DNA of 64,000 nt from the NCBI RefSeq assembly GCF_001458735.1, contig NZ_CZQA01000011.1, positions 1 to 64,000 of the forward strand, in the 5' to 3' direction. Below are positions 8,515-24,573 of this stretch, one piece after another (position 1 is the stretch's first letter; each line of letters opens with the position of its first letter). Below the pieces are notes generated by a model. The model was not told the origin of the DNA. It was given only the letters and a program-made list of their open reading frames with translations, and did no database searches. The position numbers and the translations under genes were made by a program. The DNA is from Candidatus Nitrospira nitrosa (lineage in GTDB: Bacteria > Nitrospirota > Nitrospiria > Nitrospirales > Nitrospiraceae).

Positions 8515-9135
8515 TCAGAAGGTGTGGCGTACCCCGAACAACAATCCGATAGTGGAAGCATCCCCATTTGCATGATTCCGCTTCCAGGCCGTTTCCACAT
8601 TCAGTTTCATTCCTTGTGGGGCTCCTGGGATTAAATTGGTCAAGGCATAGTCCACGCCTCCGCCAACCCGCCATGCAAAACTGTCGGACACGTTGTGTGT
8701 ATTAATGTTTACACCGATTCCGGTTGTGACATAGGGAATCAGATTTCCAAAATGCCCAGGACGATACTCCAAGTTGACAGGCAGCAAGGTGACGGTATTG
8801 ACGGAGCCGGTCCCAGGATCATCGACACCATGATTTTCCCATTCCAGCATCATCCCGGCCCGGAACCATTTATTGAGGCCATACATGCCTTGGAAGTTCA
8901 CCAAGGGGCCGACGGTAGATACGCCGGAGCCTTGTGTGGTGAAGCTCGGTCCGACACGAAACCCTCCTGTGATTCTCCCTTCTTCAGCCATGCCTTCATG
9001 GACCCATCCCCCATCGGCGGCATCGGAAGGATGATCATCAGGGGGATGAGCCTGAGCGACGTGAGGAGTCATGCCGAGCAAGAGTGTAGCGGTCAGTATC
9101 CCCTTTAATAAGGATGGAGTAAAGCTTGTATGCAT
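8515..9135 (-). CDS. Outer membrane beta-barrel protein
   Basis: Protein of 206 aa with a classic signal peptide (residues 1-29, ending AQA-H). The mature part shows alternating hydrophobic/polar strands (VNLEYRPGHF, IPYVTTGIGVNINTHN, LNVETAWKRNH) and ends in Phe (FGVRHTF), the usual outer membrane barrel C-terminal signature. An His/Asp-rich segment follows the signal peptide (HPPDDHPSD). It resembles small OmpA/OmpW-sized barrels of eight strands. Substrate or role unknown. A hairpin lies directly downstream. Confidence 0.78.
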   Translation of the reverse strand: MHTSFTPSLLKGILTATLLLGMTPHVAQAHPPDDHPSDAADGGWVHEGMAEEGRITGGFRVGPSFTTQGSGVSTVGPLVNFQGMYGLNKWFRAGMMLEWENHGVDDPGTGSVNTVTLLPVNLEYRPGHFGNLIPYVTTGIGVNINTHNVSDSFAWRVGGGVDYALTNLIPGAPQGMKLNVETAWKRNHANGDASTIGLLFGVRHTF

Positions 9136-18308: not shown

Positions 18309-18704
18309 TTATTGTGTGGTAGGGAGCGTTGCAGCTTTTGCTAACACCTCCTTGGCATCAAGCAGATCCGGAACCCCCACGGGTTTTGGGTTCTTGTACA
18401 GTGTCACCGTCATGGCTGTTCGGCGCCAGAGCCCCAACACGTCTAATCGTCCACCTTGGTAAAAGTAGTCGTACCCCTCGCGGAGTGTCAGCTCTGCACA
18501 ACGGCGGCGGAGATACGCGTCCAGCTGTGCTTGCGCCGTGAAGGCGCTCGTCCGATATTCCACCCGGTACGCGTTCTCTTTGAGCTGCTCAATGACATCA
18601 TCTCCAGCCTCACCAAGCGGTGTGTAGTGCCCGGTGGCACATCCAGGTAGAGTGGCAACCAGCACCAACAATAGGAACTCTGTTTTCCATGGATAGGTTC
18701 GCAT
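18309..18704 (-). CDS. Small lipoprotein with conserved CAE..GYDYF motif
   Basis: Protein of 131 aa. The signal peptide ends in lipobox LPGC (Cys22). The mature part has YRVEYRTSAF and RRCAELTLREGYDYF, a pattern common in small proteobacterial and Nitrospira lipoproteins of unknown function annotated by the CC0125/CC1285 type. It is likely attached to the inner leaflet of the outer membrane. Stands alone. Confidence 0.7.
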   Translation of the reverse strand: MRTYPWKTEFLLLVLVATLPGCATGHYTPLGEAGDDVIEQLKENAYRVEYRTSAFTAQAQLDAYLRRRCAELTLREGYDYFYQGGRLDVLGLWRRTAMTVTLYKNPKPVGVPDLLDAKEVLAKAATLPTTQ

Positions 18705-18898: not shown

Positions 18899-20191
18899 TT
18901 ATCTCTTGCTCTTTAGCGTCTCGTCGTTCCTCGGATTCGGGGAGAACTCATTCTTGTCTGGTTTATCCTGCTCGTTCCCTCTGACCCAGTCAGACTTCAA
19001 GAAGTTTGACAACCCTTCGGCCCGGTATGTGTGCTTGGGTAGCAATAAAGCATAGCGTGTTTTTTCAGGCTCTTTCTCCTCTTTCTGAACAACAACGATT
19101 TCAAGATCTTGCAGGCCTTCATCTCGACCACTATAGGCTCGTAGAAACATCGACCGGATGGCCACATCTTCGGGAGGGAACGAATATCCGACAATGAACC
19201 ACTGGCTAGCTCGACGTAAGACATCCAGCGCATTACGCCAGATTTCAAGTAAGATCGGATCACGCACATCTCGCACGAATGATGGCGAGACAATCACCGC
19301 CCGGAGAGGCGAATTGCCACAATGGCATTGAGTGGCACCATTCTCTTCCAATGCCTTAAGGAAGAGCGTTTGGGCAGGATCTTGCTTCCCATCGTCAGCG
19401 GAAAGAAAGGAAAGGTATGCGATAGGTCCCACGGGATTGACGTAGATCGTGTCACAGAGGTCACACCGAAGCCAGTTCAGGGAGCCGTGCAGTTTGTACA
19501 CTCCGATGTGCGCTCTTGTCGGACGGTGATAGATCTTCCCTTCAACAGGCTCTCGGACGCCCGTGCCGAAATCAACTTCACTGAATACTTGGTGGTAGCC
19601 TAATCGTTTGTAGATTTCCTGTTCTACCTCTATATCATAATTGGTTGAAATCAGAGTGACTCGTCCTTTACGTGCGATCCCCATGACCCAATCAACAATC
19701 CCCTGTACCTCTGACTCAGATTCAGGTAGTCGCTGGGACAGCAGATTGAGCTTCGTTGTTGTGTCCCATTCAGTGCGAACGCGGTCTGGCATATCCTTCA
19801 TCCGCAGCCTGGTGGGTTCTTCGTTGCGTACGAGAAGTTCAAAAATAGCACGTTCCAGGAGTGTCCGCCCCTGTGATAGATCTTCCAGCCCAAATTTCGG
19901 GATTGGTGCATTAGTAGACCGAAGGAGAAAATCAATGCTGGAGAGAAGATCCGTCACTGGAGGAATGGGTTTGTGTAGTAATTCCTCGTCAGAAGCGCTG
20001 TTCATCATCTCGCTGAGACCAGGAAGAACGGCCTGAAGGCATCTATTCAGTTGCTCAATCGCAGTGACATTTCCAGCGAAGAGAGTATTCTTGCGCAGGC
20101 GAGTGAGTATCTTGGGAATAATCTCGTTTGCCAGGGGGAGGCCAATCGCTTTCGACGCTCCCGCTCCAAGGAAAACGACAGCTTCTTCCAT
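18899..20191 (-). CDS. SIR2-fold protein, last gene of an unknown four-gene operon
   Basis: Protein of 430 aa. The start at 20191 (GGGAAGGGGAAG upstream) places the Rossmann motif at the N-terminus; a TTG at 20260 overlapping the preceding stop as TTGA is possible. SIR2 features: FLGAGASKAIGLP (residues 7-19), STNYD, and KLHGSLNW with the catalytic-type His. Two cysteine pairs (CDLC and CHC) may form a small zinc site. The tail has a Rossmann-closing FIVGYSFPPEDVAIRSM. SIR2-like proteins of this type can be NADases in antiphage systems; that role is inferred only. The three genes before it encode envelope-type proteins, which is unusual for known SIR2 defence systems. Confidence 0.82.
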   Translation of the reverse strand: MEEAVVFLGAGASKAIGLPLANEIIPKILTRLRKNTLFAGNVTAIEQLNRCLQAVLPGLSEMMNSASDEELLHKPIPPVTDLLSSIDFLLRSTNAPIPKFGLEDLSQGRTLLERAIFELLVRNEEPTRLRMKDMPDRVRTEWDTTTKLNLLSQRLPESESEVQGIVDWVMGIARKGRVTLISTNYDIEVEQEIYKRLGYHQVFSEVDFGTGVREPVEGKIYHRPTRAHIGVYKLHGSLNWLRCDLCDTIYVNPVGPIAYLSFLSADDGKQDPAQTLFLKALEENGATQCHCGNSPLRAVIVSPSFVRDVRDPILLEIWRNALDVLRRASQWFIVGYSFPPEDVAIRSMFLRAYSGRDEGLQDLEIVVVQKEEKEPEKTRYALLLPKHTYRAEGLSNFLKSDWVRGNEQDKPDKNEFSPNPRNDETLKSKR

Positions 20192-20256
20192 AGTTAGATC
20201 TTCCCCTTCCCTTAGCTGACAGTGGTCTTTTGATATCCGTGCTAAGGAATTGCCGA

Positions 20257-21324
20257 TCAAGTATTTGGTGTTTTCCCCTGGCCAATCTTATCTTTCGCGG
20301 GCTGTTCTGCCGTCCTAAAGATCGTGCTGAATACTTCGCTCAGCTTGTCTGTCGCAGTTTTTGCGAACATCCCGGTTAAAGCTGAGAAGGCGTAGATTCC
20401 CACGAGATTAAGGCTGGCAGTGCTTGAGGGACTATTCGCAATTCCGGATGGACTCAGGATGCCAACTCGGAGGAGCATATAGACAATCGGTGCGAGCGCA
20501 GCGCCAGCGATGGGAAGTGACAAGTAATACGGCAGCCATCGACGCTTGAGCTGACCATTTCCAATGTACATAACGAGTGAGAGTACAAGATGGAGTGATC
20601 CTCCTAGCGCTCCAAGGAGGATCACCATGTGGATGACGGTCCTTTCTGACGCCCCTCCTTGACCAAGTGCTGTAAATGCTTTGTCCGCATCGTCTTGGGC
20701 TGTCGCGACCTGAGTTTTCAGCTTTTCGAATCCGTTCGGCTCGGAAAGAGGGATCTTCTGGGCCTCTGTTTCATTCTGACTATTGGCGGAAGCTTGTGGG
20801 GCAGGACGAGAGGCCTTTTTTACCTCCTCTGCTAGAAGTGCCGTCCCCGTCCTCTGCACTTCAGCTAGTTTCTTGAGTGCTGCATCCGCCCTCTGAAGCT
20901 TGACTGTAAAATCAGAAGCGGTTGCCTCTTCCCAGTGGTTAACGATCGTGCCTAACAGTGTTCCGGCTATGAGAAACGAAATGAACAACCATGTAAAAAT
21001 GAAGAAATTCGAGGCATAGCCTCCATACATCAGGTGCCCTTCATCAGTAGGCCCGTCGAGACCTGCAACAGATCTCAATGAGTCTCTAACCAGGATGAGG
21101 CGAGTGTAGGCAATATTCCGGTCCTTTTCGTCCATCTTCATCCATACGGCATCGTCAAGTTTTTCTGCGGGAGATGGGAGAAGGGGTTTCAGTATGTCCG
21201 CTTCTATGCTCTCAATGTCTTTTAGTTTGGTGCGAGCAACCTCGCCAAACGAGTTGATGGTGGATTTAAGCCTTATGATTTCATCCAGAATCTGCTGCGT
21301 TGTTGTGCTCGCGACGGCGGGCAT
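20257..21324 (-). CDS. Four-TM membrane protein of the SIR2 operon
   Basis: Protein of 355 aa. The ATG at 21324 has GGAGG five bases upstream; the listed longer frame begins at a TTG inside that ribosome site. Residues 1-105 are soluble and helical, TM1 is about 107-128, residues 130-228 form a helical, partly coiled-coil and Ala/Gln-rich loop, and TM2-TM4 are about 230-254, 264-290 and 304-321. The tail is charged. No domain recognised. It is followed 66 bp later by the SIR2 gene, and preceded by an 89-bp gap. Confidence 0.7.
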   Translation of the reverse strand: MPAVASTTTQQILDEIIRLKSTINSFGEVARTKLKDIESIEADILKPLLPSPAEKLDDAVWMKMDEKDRNIAYTRLILVRDSLRSVAGLDGPTDEGHLMYGGYASNFFIFTWLFISFLIAGTLLGTIVNHWEEATASDFTVKLQRADAALKKLAEVQRTGTALLAEEVKKASRPAPQASANSQNETEAQKIPLSEPNGFEKLKTQVATAQDDADKAFTALGQGGASERTVIHMVILLGALGGSLHLVLSLVMYIGNGQLKRRWLPYYLSLPIAGAALAPIVYMLLRVGILSPSGIANSPSSTASLNLVGIYAFSALTGMFAKTATDKLSEVFSTIFRTAEQPAKDKIGQGKTPNT

Positions 21325-21413
21325 GGTTTCCTCCAAAGTTGCACGTATTCAGATTGAAAAGGTATGGTCCAAATACATCATGAGGTGTCTAACCGGCGGA
21401 TCTCCGCTCGTCT

Positions 21414-21605
21414 TTATTGGCGATAGGTCACTCGCCAACCTTTTGAGCTGCCGATTTCAATGCGCCGAATTTCAACAATGGACAGATCGTTCCAAGCTCC
21501 ACTCAGTAAATCCGAGAGCTCGGAATTCTTGTCCTCATCACTTGTAAACTCTTCCGGGTCCTCGCTGTACCATTCCTTCTCTTTCAGGACTGCTTTTGAT
21601 GGCAT
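21414..21605 (-). CDS. 63-aa acidic protein of the SIR2 operon
   Basis: Its ATG overlaps the stop codon of the lipoprotein gene (TAATG) and has a near-perfect ribosome site (GCAGGAGGTG), so translation is very likely coupled. The N-terminal half is acidic (SEDPEEFTSDEDKNSE), the C-terminal half alternates hydrophobic and basic residues (IVEIRRIEIGSSKGWRVTYR). No transmembrane segment. No family recognised. The excellent ribosome site is the main reason to call it. Confidence 0.65.
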   Translation of the reverse strand: MPSKAVLKEKEWYSEDPEEFTSDEDKNSELSDLLSGAWNDLSIVEIRRIEIGSSKGWRVTYRQ

Positions 21606-23137
21606 TAGTCACCTCCTGCCTGTTCAAGATCGCTTGCAAAATCGATTGCATCGCGGAGCAGCAGTTGATGGTCATGAAGCCCCTGCTCAAGCTCGGCGAG
21701 CGTCTGCGTGCTACACTGAAGTTGTTCCGCCTGGTCTGTTGGGCGTGGGTTCGGTTCGGCCTGCAAGGCAGCGATAGAGTGGCGGAGCTTTTCTCTGAAA
21801 GTCGTTACGACCGAAAAATTGCGAGGTTCTACACCTATGGGTGAGCCAGCCTGAAATTGGTCGCTTAAGGCACCATCCGGTCCTGTCTTCCCATAGATTG
21901 TGCAGGGGTACACAGCTGGAACCAGAGAAGCCAGAGCGTCTAATTCCTTCAAGAAAGTCATGGCTTTGGGGTTCTGGCCCTTTGCGGCCTCTTCCTTTAT
22001 TGTCTTGTAACTACGCTTTGATACCACGCTTTTGGGGGTCCGTTGGCCGTCCGGTGAAATCTGTTGAGTGAGGATGGCGTGGGTCGGGATGGGTGGACCC
22101 AGGAACCCGTATTGATCGATTGGGAAATCAAACCCCAAGTACCCGATGACCAGTGGCCGAGGAAAGGTCTCCACTAAAGAAATAGTGTTCGCAGATGCGG
22201 CGACAACTTTGACGGTCCCTCCTGGGATCAAAGTATCCCCAGCTTTCGACAGGATGCCCTCAACCATTCGGTTGAGCTTTTCGAGATTGGTGTTGTATGC
22301 CTCCATGGAAACCTGCTGAACATCTCCACCGGCGTGTGGCATGAGTAGATCAACTGGCTTGCGAGCACCACCCCAGACCTCTCCTGCCGAGGACTTTGAT
22401 GATTGCAAGGACACGTTGACACGGCTCGTGAGGTAGACCCGGCTGACAACCCGGACGAAATTCTGTTTGATCTTCTTCTGCCCATCTATTGATGGAGCAA
22501 AATTGGAGAGGAAGGACCGGTGACTGGACGCCCACTTTTGTGTGTCTTCCTCCAAAGAGATTGTGTCGATGCCATAAGTCTTCGCGTCTGCGATGACGAT
22601 GCTTCCTTGCGCTGCATCGCTTGCGAGCAAGCTTAATCCCACAGGAACACCCTGGACTGGCACAGCGAGATTGAGACCGGCACCGCGGCGTACTGCAAAG
22701 GAATAGGTGGGAAAGCTTGAATTGGGAGCTGATGTGCCTGGTACACCTTGGCCAGGTGCAAACCAGTCCCGCGGGAGGATCAAATTGTTCGCGGCATGTA
22801 CAGTCCTCTCATAAAATTTCCCAAAGCCGCTAGGCAGAATGCGGCCAATGTGGTTATCAAGAGGAAGAAACCCGCTCCGGTTGAAGATTTCCTGTTGCCT
22901 GTCAATTGGAATTTGCACCAGAAAAATGTCTCCAGGCTGTAAATCCTCCGTGAGCGGATAGACTGGCATGATCTGGCTTGCGCGTATAGTCAGCGACCAG
23001 TCCTTGGCTACCTGTTCCAACTCGTTCTGCTTCCCTTTCCATGAACAACCTGAAACTACGATGAGTAGAGATAGAAATAAACTCGTGTACGGGGACGCCC
23101 CGTTCGAATGTCTATTCTTTCTTGGCACCACCTTCAT
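21605..23137 (-). CDS. Large lipoprotein, first gene of the SIR2 operon
   Basis: Protein of 510 aa with GGGGAGA before the ATG. Signal peptide with lipobox VSGC (Cys31). The mature protein contains LQPGDIFLVQIPI near residue 65, LPLDNHIGRILP, and a long central beta-rich part with repeated VNVSLQSS/VKVVAASANTISLVE-like strands; the last 60 residues are helical and Gln/Glu-rich. No domain recognised. It should be anchored in the inner or outer membrane facing the periplasm. It opens the operon; a 41-bp element shared with another operon lies about 280 bp upstream. Confidence 0.72.
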   Translation of the reverse strand: MKVVPRKNRHSNGASPYTSLFLSLLIVVSGCSWKGKQNELEQVAKDWSLTIRASQIMPVYPLTEDLQPGDIFLVQIPIDRQQEIFNRSGFLPLDNHIGRILPSGFGKFYERTVHAANNLILPRDWFAPGQGVPGTSAPNSSFPTYSFAVRRGAGLNLAVPVQGVPVGLSLLASDAAQGSIVIADAKTYGIDTISLEEDTQKWASSHRSFLSNFAPSIDGQKKIKQNFVRVVSRVYLTSRVNVSLQSSKSSAGEVWGGARKPVDLLMPHAGGDVQQVSMEAYNTNLEKLNRMVEGILSKAGDTLIPGGTVKVVAASANTISLVETFPRPLVIGYLGFDFPIDQYGFLGPPIPTHAILTQQISPDGQRTPKSVVSKRSYKTIKEEAAKGQNPKAMTFLKELDALASLVPAVYPCTIYGKTGPDGALSDQFQAGSPIGVEPRNFSVVTTFREKLRHSIAALQAEPNPRPTDQAEQLQCSTQTLAELEQGLHDHQLLLRDAIDFASDLEQAGGD

Positions 23138-23556
23138 ACGTGTCTCCCCTGCATGACTGATATGTAATCAGATCATTTAATTTCAATGCTGTACATTGCC
23201 GGGTCTTGAATTTGGCACTCACTTGCATGCTAACGCACACAGATCGATGCAACTTTCTACATGAAGTGATCTATGGAACGATCTCATCCATGACCCTGAA
23301 ACTAAAATGCTTCCAGTATTGGCAGGAGCAAAGAATAGGCCACGAGGAAGATCGCGAGAACTACGTAAATCAGGAAGAATTGTGAAGTTGGTTAGGAAGA
23401 ACGATCGCTAGAGGTGAATCTCTTTCGATTCAGGGTGTATCTAAATAGATTCATGGTTAGTTCTTCTGGATGGGTGGCAAGTGAGAATACCATGGGAGCC
23501 AGTAACGCTCCTACCTATCCTTTCTCGATAGCCATGAACTGACAGATGGTTCGGCA
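23138..23556. other. Intergenic region upstream of the SIR2 operon
   Basis: About 420 bp with no gene. It holds the first copy of a 41-bp repeat (23413-23453) and an imperfect palindrome CTGATATGTAATCAG about 20 bp upstream of the lipoprotein start. A -24/-12-like string at 23213-23226 has the wrong spacing. Confidence 0.55.
23413..23453. repeat. 41-bp upstream repeat, copy A
   Basis: About 36 of 41 positions match copy B at 25034-25074. On the minus strand it begins TGAATCTATTTAGAT and ends with GAGATTCACC, so arms TGAATCT and AGATTCA face each other. It lies about 280 bp upstream of the SIR2-operon lipoprotein gene. Confidence 0.65.
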
Positions 23557-24573
23557 CTACCACTCCCGAATTATCTTCCCCTCAGCGGTGAATAGCTGTG
23601 AGCCGGCTTCTTTGAAGACGACTTCATCTGGGGCATAGATGACCTTCCGGCCGTCTTTCACCATCTGTTCGATCTGGAACGGAATTGCAGCCAAGAATCC
23701 CTCATCATGCATGCTGGCCCTTTCGAAGAACACATCATCCGGGAACAGGCTGAGATAGGTGTCGAAGCCACCTTTGAATGTGCCAAGTTTTCGATAGGCC
23801 CACCAGGTACATTGGCGACGGTAGAGCTTGGGGTGGAGAAACCGTTTGGTCTTTTCCGGTTTGAGTGTGGCGGTTGCCGGCGGCTGGTACAGGAGTTGAG
23901 AATCAAACTCACCAATCGTACGGGTTTGATATTGTGCTACACCGTCGGTGGCAGTTTCCCCGATCGCCCACGCCTCCAGGCAGGCCTCCATTTCGGCCGG
24001 TTGCATGGAATTATACAACGCCACGATCGCGAGACCCTGTCGGAGAATTTCCAGATTGATGTCGATCTCGTTGACGAGCACATTGCCGACGAATCGCCCG
24101 TATTTATCTACGGCATCCGCCGGACCTTCATGATCCGTCACCTCTGTCTGAAATCGACAGGGGAGAGGAGACGTGCCGAACGTGCTGAGATAGCGGCCCA
24201 GTCGAACCGTGGCGGTTTCTGCCTGACGCTGGCGATATTTTTTGACCAGTCCGGATCCTCTGAGGCTGCCAAACGGCTGACCTTTGTAGGTCTTCCCCTT
24301 CATGGATTGCGGTTGATAGTGCAGTTCTGGTGCGTCGACTCCCTGTAGCCGCACGGTGATTTTCCCATTTTTAATGACCGGCTTCAGTTGGCCGAACGAT
24401 TTGACACAGGCACCGGCATACTTCGTGGTGGGGCGTGGAACGTCATCGGCTGGTTGGTATTGGACGGCACTAGGAGAGACCGTCAGCACAATCTTCGTCG
24501 TATCGGCATCAGATTCTCCTATCGGCCAGAACTGTGACAGGTCTAACGTTCCATCGATCGTCAGCTTGCCCAT
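23557..24573 (-). CDS. SNase-like nuclease with C-terminal extension
   Basis: Protein of 338 aa, ATG preceded by AAAGGAGA. All nuclease positions are present: Asp22/Asp24 (SDADTTKI), Arg75 (VRLQGVDAPE), Asp80, Glu83, and Arg160 (DKYGRFVG). An insertion of about 35 residues separates the first Asp pair from Arg75, and a further insert (about 95-145) precedes Arg160. Residues ~230-338 form an extra domain with RRQCTWWAYRKLGTF and VIYAPDEVVFKEAGSQLF that I do not recognise. No signal peptide is visible, so it is probably cytoplasmic or exported by another route. Contrast with the catalytically degraded homologue at 7793. Confidence 0.8.
   Translation of the reverse strand: MGKLTIDGTLDLSQFWPIGESDADTTKIVLTVSPSAVQYQPADDVPRPTTKYAGACVKSFGQLKPVIKNGKITVRLQGVDAPELHYQPQSMKGKTYKGQPFGSLRGSGLVKKYRQRQAETATVRLGRYLSTFGTSPLPCRFQTEVTDHEGPADAVDKYGRFVGNVLVNEIDINLEILRQGLAIVALYNSMQPAEMEACLEAWAIGETATDGVAQYQTRTIGEFDSQLLYQPPATATLKPEKTKRFLHPKLYRRQCTWWAYRKLGTFKGGFDTYLSLFPDDVFFERASMHDEGFLAAIPFQIEQMVKDGRKVIYAPDEVVFKEAGSQLFTAEGKIIREW

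Follow-up and report, generated by a model that had tools for sequence, protein, structure and literature searches.

Several described bacterial systems employ SIR2-type NAD-binding effectors. SIR2-HerA (Nezha) is a two-gene unit, Thoeris pairs a SIR2-SLOG protein (ThsA) with the TIR protein ThsB, and DSR1-DSR2 and KomC also belong to this group. In the small operons of long-B prokaryotic Argonautes, SIR2_2 proteins (BPAS) and trans-membrane proteins (BPAM) both act as abortive-infection effectors (PMC10620215).

Here, we analyzed a 64,000-nucleotide stretch of Candidatus Nitrospira nitrosa DNA (the window), which carries four genes encoding a large lipoprotein, a 63-aa acidic protein, a four-transmembrane (4TM) protein, and a SIR2-like protein. 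We found that this operon is composed of two independent two-gene modules, one comprising the 4TM and SIR2 genes (module A) and the other the lipoprotein and 63-aa genes (module B). Judged from sequence, there is about an even chance that module A is a horizontally moving, membrane-linked NAD-depleting conflict module of the anti-phage type.

As in Nezha, module A is a two-gene unit with a SIR2 fold and its characteristic residues, and SIR2-HerA proteins are its top matches in both Foldseek and sequence searches; unlike in Nezha, the partner is a four-TM membrane protein, and no HerA-family ATPase is encoded among the operon and flanking genes. With ThsA, DSR1-DSR2, and KomC, the locus shares the SIR2-type effector, but here this is a separate, short protein with neither SLOG domain nor long C-terminal sensor, and the fold matches are weaker. 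None of the operon or flanking proteins matched TIR or ThsB, and in PADLOC ThsA was not matched by the SIR2 protein at E<=1. The two effector types of the long-B Argonaute operons are both represented but sit together here, and the operon contains no Argonaute gene. The small multi-TM family YLATT (PF20303) was weakly matched by one relative of the 4TM protein (14.2 bits against a cut-off of 26.7; E 0.04), although none of 25 family members reached E<0.01, and we rejected membership. A literature search of an open library yielded nothing specific on YLATT or on a SIR2 plus multi-TM pair, and no known defence system was recognized adjoining the operon within the window. A SIR2 NADase-type protein tied to a membrane partner is not shown by the solved SIR2 defence systems compared here.

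Anatomy of the operon and the SIR2 protein

The features of the region are listed below, together with their counterparts in a sister species (G181; contig L038, also L050) and in a related genome with an empty site (G032; L042).

18309..18704, minus strand: CC0125-family lipoprotein gene, left flank (L042:6470-6865 in the G032 empty site)
18899..20191, minus strand: SIR2-like protein, 430 aa from ATG (453 aa from a TTG at 20260), module A
20257..21324, minus strand: 4TM protein, 355 aa from ATG (359 aa from an upstream TTG), module A
21359..23258, no strand: 1,900-bp block with the lipoprotein and 63-aa genes, found in the window and precisely missing from G181
21414..21605, minus strand: 63-aa acidic protein, pI 4.6, module B
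21605..23137, minus strand: lipoprotein, 510 aa, lipobox LIVVSGC, module B
23259..23556, no strand: upstream region common to G181, immediately preceding the 4TM gene there
23557..24573, minus strand: SNase-domain gene, right flank (L042:7276-8292 in the G032 empty site)

The initial annotation had described four same-strand genes in close order, the first two overlapping and the others separated by gaps of 89 and 66 bp, and this description holds. All four open reading frames are closely packed on the minus strand, from the lipoprotein gene through the 63-aa and 4TM genes to the SIR2 gene; the lipoprotein gene ends and the 63-aa gene begins within a shared CTAATG; and the ATG starts of the 4TM (21324) and SIR2 (20191) genes, which are backed by homologous starts in G181, give gaps of 89 and ca. 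66 bp. The strong ribosome sites that it had noted are present at the 63-aa (GGAGG) and 4TM (GGAGGA) genes, but those of the lipoprotein and SIR2 genes are weaker. Promoters in the operon region did not score above shuffled sequences in a promoter/terminator scan, and terminators were marginal; the upstream region at 23259..23556 likely carries a putative ancestral promoter, and the lipoprotein and 63-aa genes are probably now cotranscribed with the 4TM and SIR2 genes.

Each gene is single copy in the nearly complete 4.42-Mb host genome (G000). Comparison with G181 gave dN/dS ratios of 0.24 for the 4TM gene and 0.15 for the SIR2 gene; this purifying selection indicates that both are real genes rather than chance open reading frames and that both are maintained. 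The 63-aa and lipoprotein genes are supported by homologues in a genome of another genus (G235). The GC content of the four-gene stretch (51%, versus 56-57% in the flanks) is consistent with acquisition.

The SIR2 motifs reported initially (GAGAS, TNYD, and KLHGSLNW) were all found, as were both Cys pairs (C243-x2-C246 and C289-x-C291). GAGAS, TNYD, and KLHGS are conserved across an alignment of close relatives (A9), in which GAG, N184, D186, and H235 are invariant, as are C243 and C246; the second Cys pair is not. The protein scored 20.7 bits against Pfam SIR2_2 (PF13289), below the gathering cut-off of 24.5, and on this basis is best regarded as a divergent SIR2_2 relative and not a curated member; its PADLOC SIR2 match had an E value of 8e-10, and SIR2-HerA-type proteins ranked first among solved structures in the sequence search. 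A predicted model of modest confidence (pLDDT 66, pTM 0.69) matched SIR2-HerA chains in Foldseek (E 4e-8), followed by sirtuins and KomC, with DSR2 and ThsA weaker. The SIR2 fold proposed by the initial annotation is thus borne out: a Rossmann-type SIR2 fold with the NAD-pocket GAG, Asn, and His residues intact places the protein in the SIR2-like NADase superfamily, and it did not group with a family of known nondefence function.

A nondefence role, as a zinc-ribbon sirtuin-like deacylase or an NAD-linked envelope housekeeping enzyme, nevertheless has to be weighed. The C-x2-C and C-x-C pairs lie at the position of the sirtuin zinc site, so that deacylase activity is conceivable, and sirtuins are among the fold matches. 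We consider this role improbable: the patchy distribution of the 4TM gene (4 of 396 genomes), the signal of horizontal transfer, the variable site, and the immune-type neighbors described below are all unlike those of housekeeping genes.

Two modules at one variable site

The initial annotation had treated the four genes as a single system, whose order should recur in relatives. Neither expectation was upheld. In profile searches of 396 Nitrospirota genomes, the 4TM protein was found in four, the lipoprotein in three, and strong SIR2 relatives in 18, and the only genome with all three was that of Ca. N. nitrosa. In G181, the 4TM gene (90% identical) sits beside the SIR2 gene (92%) at the same chromosomal site, and the lipoprotein and 63-aa genes are absent from the locus. 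On the G181 side, the local alignments break off and resume at a single base (L038 base 10513), which corresponds to window positions 21358 and 23259; the breakpoints are precise to one base. Conversely, G235 (L130) encodes a 41% identical lipoprotein homologue followed directly by a 45% identical 63-aa homologue (L130:8140-8310; E 1.6e-8), with neither a 4TM nor a SIR2 gene nearby in the 15 kb of L130 covered. Because the modules occur apart in G181, G235, and elsewhere, we regard the lipoprotein and 63-aa genes as one module and the 4TM and SIR2 genes as another; the unity of the four genes is ruled out by G181, G235, and G032. A role for the 63-aa protein as a type II antitoxin, or in relieving SIR2 toxicity as suggested initially, is likewise disfavored, since the SIR2 and 4TM genes occur without it in G181 and it occurs without SIR2 in G235. 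The exact difference between the two loci indicates that an envelope lipoprotein pair can join or leave such an operon as a unit, and cautions that a tight operon need not equal one machine.

These comparisons also bear on the idea of a genuine four-gene envelope-stress system, in which the lipoprotein would sense outer-membrane damage or phage and signal via a periplasmic loop of the 4TM protein while the 63-aa protein tuned SIR2. The four genes are close packed with one likely transcript, the 4TM loop is predicted to be periplasmic by the charge rule, and in another genome (G058) a nonhomologous row of lipoprotein, membrane protein, and SIR2 genes occupies the corresponding place. However, G181 lacks the lipoprotein and 63-aa genes yet keeps the 4TM loop, and G235 lacks the 4TM and SIR2 genes, leaving this scheme with a slim chance of being correct.

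The lipoprotein has a Trp at position +2 and would be expected to be sorted to the outer membrane; it matched no family model. Besides G235, homologues are encoded by G063, by a Rhizobium plasmid, and by Klebsiella IncFIB plasmids, and in these latter three settings no SIR2 or 4TM gene lay beside them. The distant homologues on the Klebsiella plasmids (L123-L125) adjoin a gene for a 115-aa membrane protein, and two of these loci also carry genes for a 1126-aa protein and a DNA methyltransferase. Near the G235 module are two gene copies of a ca. 28-aa hydrophobic peptide (MDIGVTLIMANLLMAALVYVVIGMIWQE type; L130:4692-4913 and 8622-8705). Module B may contribute sensing at the envelope but is dispensable for the 4TM-SIR2 core.

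The site itself is variable. In G032 it is empty, the CC0125-type gene adjoining the SNase gene with no operon between them. Between Ca. N. nitrosa and G181, dS is 0.20-0.25 for the 4TM and SIR2 genes and 0.80-0.90 for two flanking genes; the low values of the pair relative to its flanks suggest a recent transfer, later than the divergence of the two core genomes. In G181, an FRG gene (PADLOC candidate PDC-S15; L038:7013-7891) adjoins the 4TM-SIR2 pair and a TIR-NB-ARC-WD40 gene (936 aa; L038:260-3070) is close by, which gives the region the look of a conflict-gene hot spot. The 4TM protein was not found on plasmids, and neither it nor the lipoprotein was matched in viral contigs. At the corresponding place in G058 (L015:5473-12910) is a row of genes for a lipoprotein, a second lipoprotein, a membrane protein, a SIR2 protein (44% identical to that of the window), a PhoD-like phosphatase, and a lipoprotein hydrolase. 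The membrane protein and lipoprotein gave no hhalign signal with those of the window and were rejected as homologues; the parallel is one of arrangement only.

The 4TM family and a proposed mechanism

Hydropathy reveals three clear TM segments in the 4TM protein, and alignment together with the predicted model (all helical; pLDDT 75) points to a fourth. The charge distribution suggests an N-in/C-in topology with the ca. 98-aa loop between TM1 and TM2 in the periplasm. The model had no significant fold match, and none that was pore-like. A scan of 84,980 species identified 65 loci encoding family members, in Nitrospira, Acidobacteria, Proteobacteria, Actinobacteria, Verrucomicrobia, Ignavibacteria, and others, and an alignment of 25 members from several phyla defined a core of G-x-x-G, GN...W, R-x-G, and G(M/L)F(S/A)K.ATDKL. 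No Pfam or NCBIfam model covers this membrane core, and the protein in the window matched no model in PADLOC or PHROGs.

A six-frame search placed SIR2 genes within 7 of the 65 loci and found none in the examined flanks of the other 58. Those on the same strand include the sister-species locus (L050), a 4TM-SIR2-nSTAND1 operon in Ignavibacteria (L059), a SIR2-nSTAND1/WD40-4TM row in Terriglobia (L070), and a SIR2 gene near a 4TM relative in Verrucomicrobia (L076); in three Streptomyces loci (L092, L099, and L101) the SIR2 gene is divergent. No Pfam family was more frequent than SIR2_2 (six, tied for first place) among 92 neighbor proteins from ca. 41 loci. The seven SIR2 genes were observed in 0.90 Mb, against 0.11 expected, a comparison good only to an order of magnitude, as the expectation derives from SIR2_2 density in 59 genomes of one group (the host's order) with a different profile and the Streptomyces loci are mutually related. 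Two further relatives (L039 and L052) have TIR genes nearby, and another has a DUF4062-nSTAND1 gene. Overall, 4TM relatives appear to neighbor SIR2, TIR, STAND, and FRG genes above chance expectation. Given that most 4TM loci lack SIR2 and that many SIR2 relatives are orphans or lie in other operons, neither protein needs the other.

For module A, we infer NADase activity, topology, physical coupling, a trigger, and an anti-phage role as follows. A cytoplasmic SIR2 NADase would be the effector, and the four-TM inner-membrane protein would tether and/or gate it or serve as the sensor. In response to a trigger (most likely phage attack) acting on the membrane or across it, the 4TM protein would release or activate the enzyme, which would deplete NAD+ and stop the cell, as in abortive infection. 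The lipoprotein and 63-aa proteins form a separate envelope module that the core does not need; their genes now lie upstream of the 4TM gene, separating it from the ancestral upstream region. The initial proposal of an envelope-sensing system with a cytoplasmic NAD-cleaving effector therefore survives in part: the SIR2 fold with its intact NAD pocket, the membrane partner, and the conflict-type surroundings in relatives agree with it, but the single four-gene machine does not stand.

Alternatively, the 4TM protein itself may be the killer, a pore or channel opened by a nucleotide signal that SIR2 (or TIR elsewhere) makes from NAD+. Membrane proteins do serve as effectors in other systems, such as BPAM (PMC10620215). 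Relatives of the 4TM protein pair with varied NAD-consuming or TIR-type genes (SIR2, TIR_2, and CAP12-type TIR), and C-terminal CBS domains end 2 of the 25 aligned relatives and TIG domains 3. CBS domains commonly bind adenine nucleotides. However, the 4TM protein of the window has neither domain and no pore-like fold match, and SIR2 proteins are usually the toxic component; we think this alternative unlikely, if worth keeping in mind. A broader and rather doubtful extension is that NAD-consuming SIR2 or TIR enzymes drive the uncatalogued multiphylum 4TM family as a common effector or receptor at the membrane, forming an immune module gated by an NAD-derived signal, with the lipoprotein and 63-aa pair as a swappable outer-envelope sensor. 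Under our preferred reading, with SIR2 as the effector, this widespread family, unnamed in the libraries searched and found with SIR2, TIR, and STAND genes, offers an entry point to membrane-coupled NAD depletion.

Other SIR2 loci were also encountered. Phage-like contigs and Nitrospirota genomes share a four-gene cassette (L115:3586-7358, L118:2983-6765, and L157:3068-6487 in G156; also G371, L156) encoding a ca. 443- to 471-aa protein, a SIR2 protein, a ca. 133- to 147-aa small-nuclease-like protein, and a ca. 195- to 214-aa protein, all four of which are homologous (35-44% identical) between phage-like and genomic copies. In G087 (L018:2490-7616), a gene for a 951-aa protein lies between two SIR2-like genes in one same-strand row, and in G417 (L155:2061-9543) a SIR2 gene is flanked by NOV_C helicase and DUF1156 methyltransferase-type genes, an arrangement resembling a restriction/defence operon.
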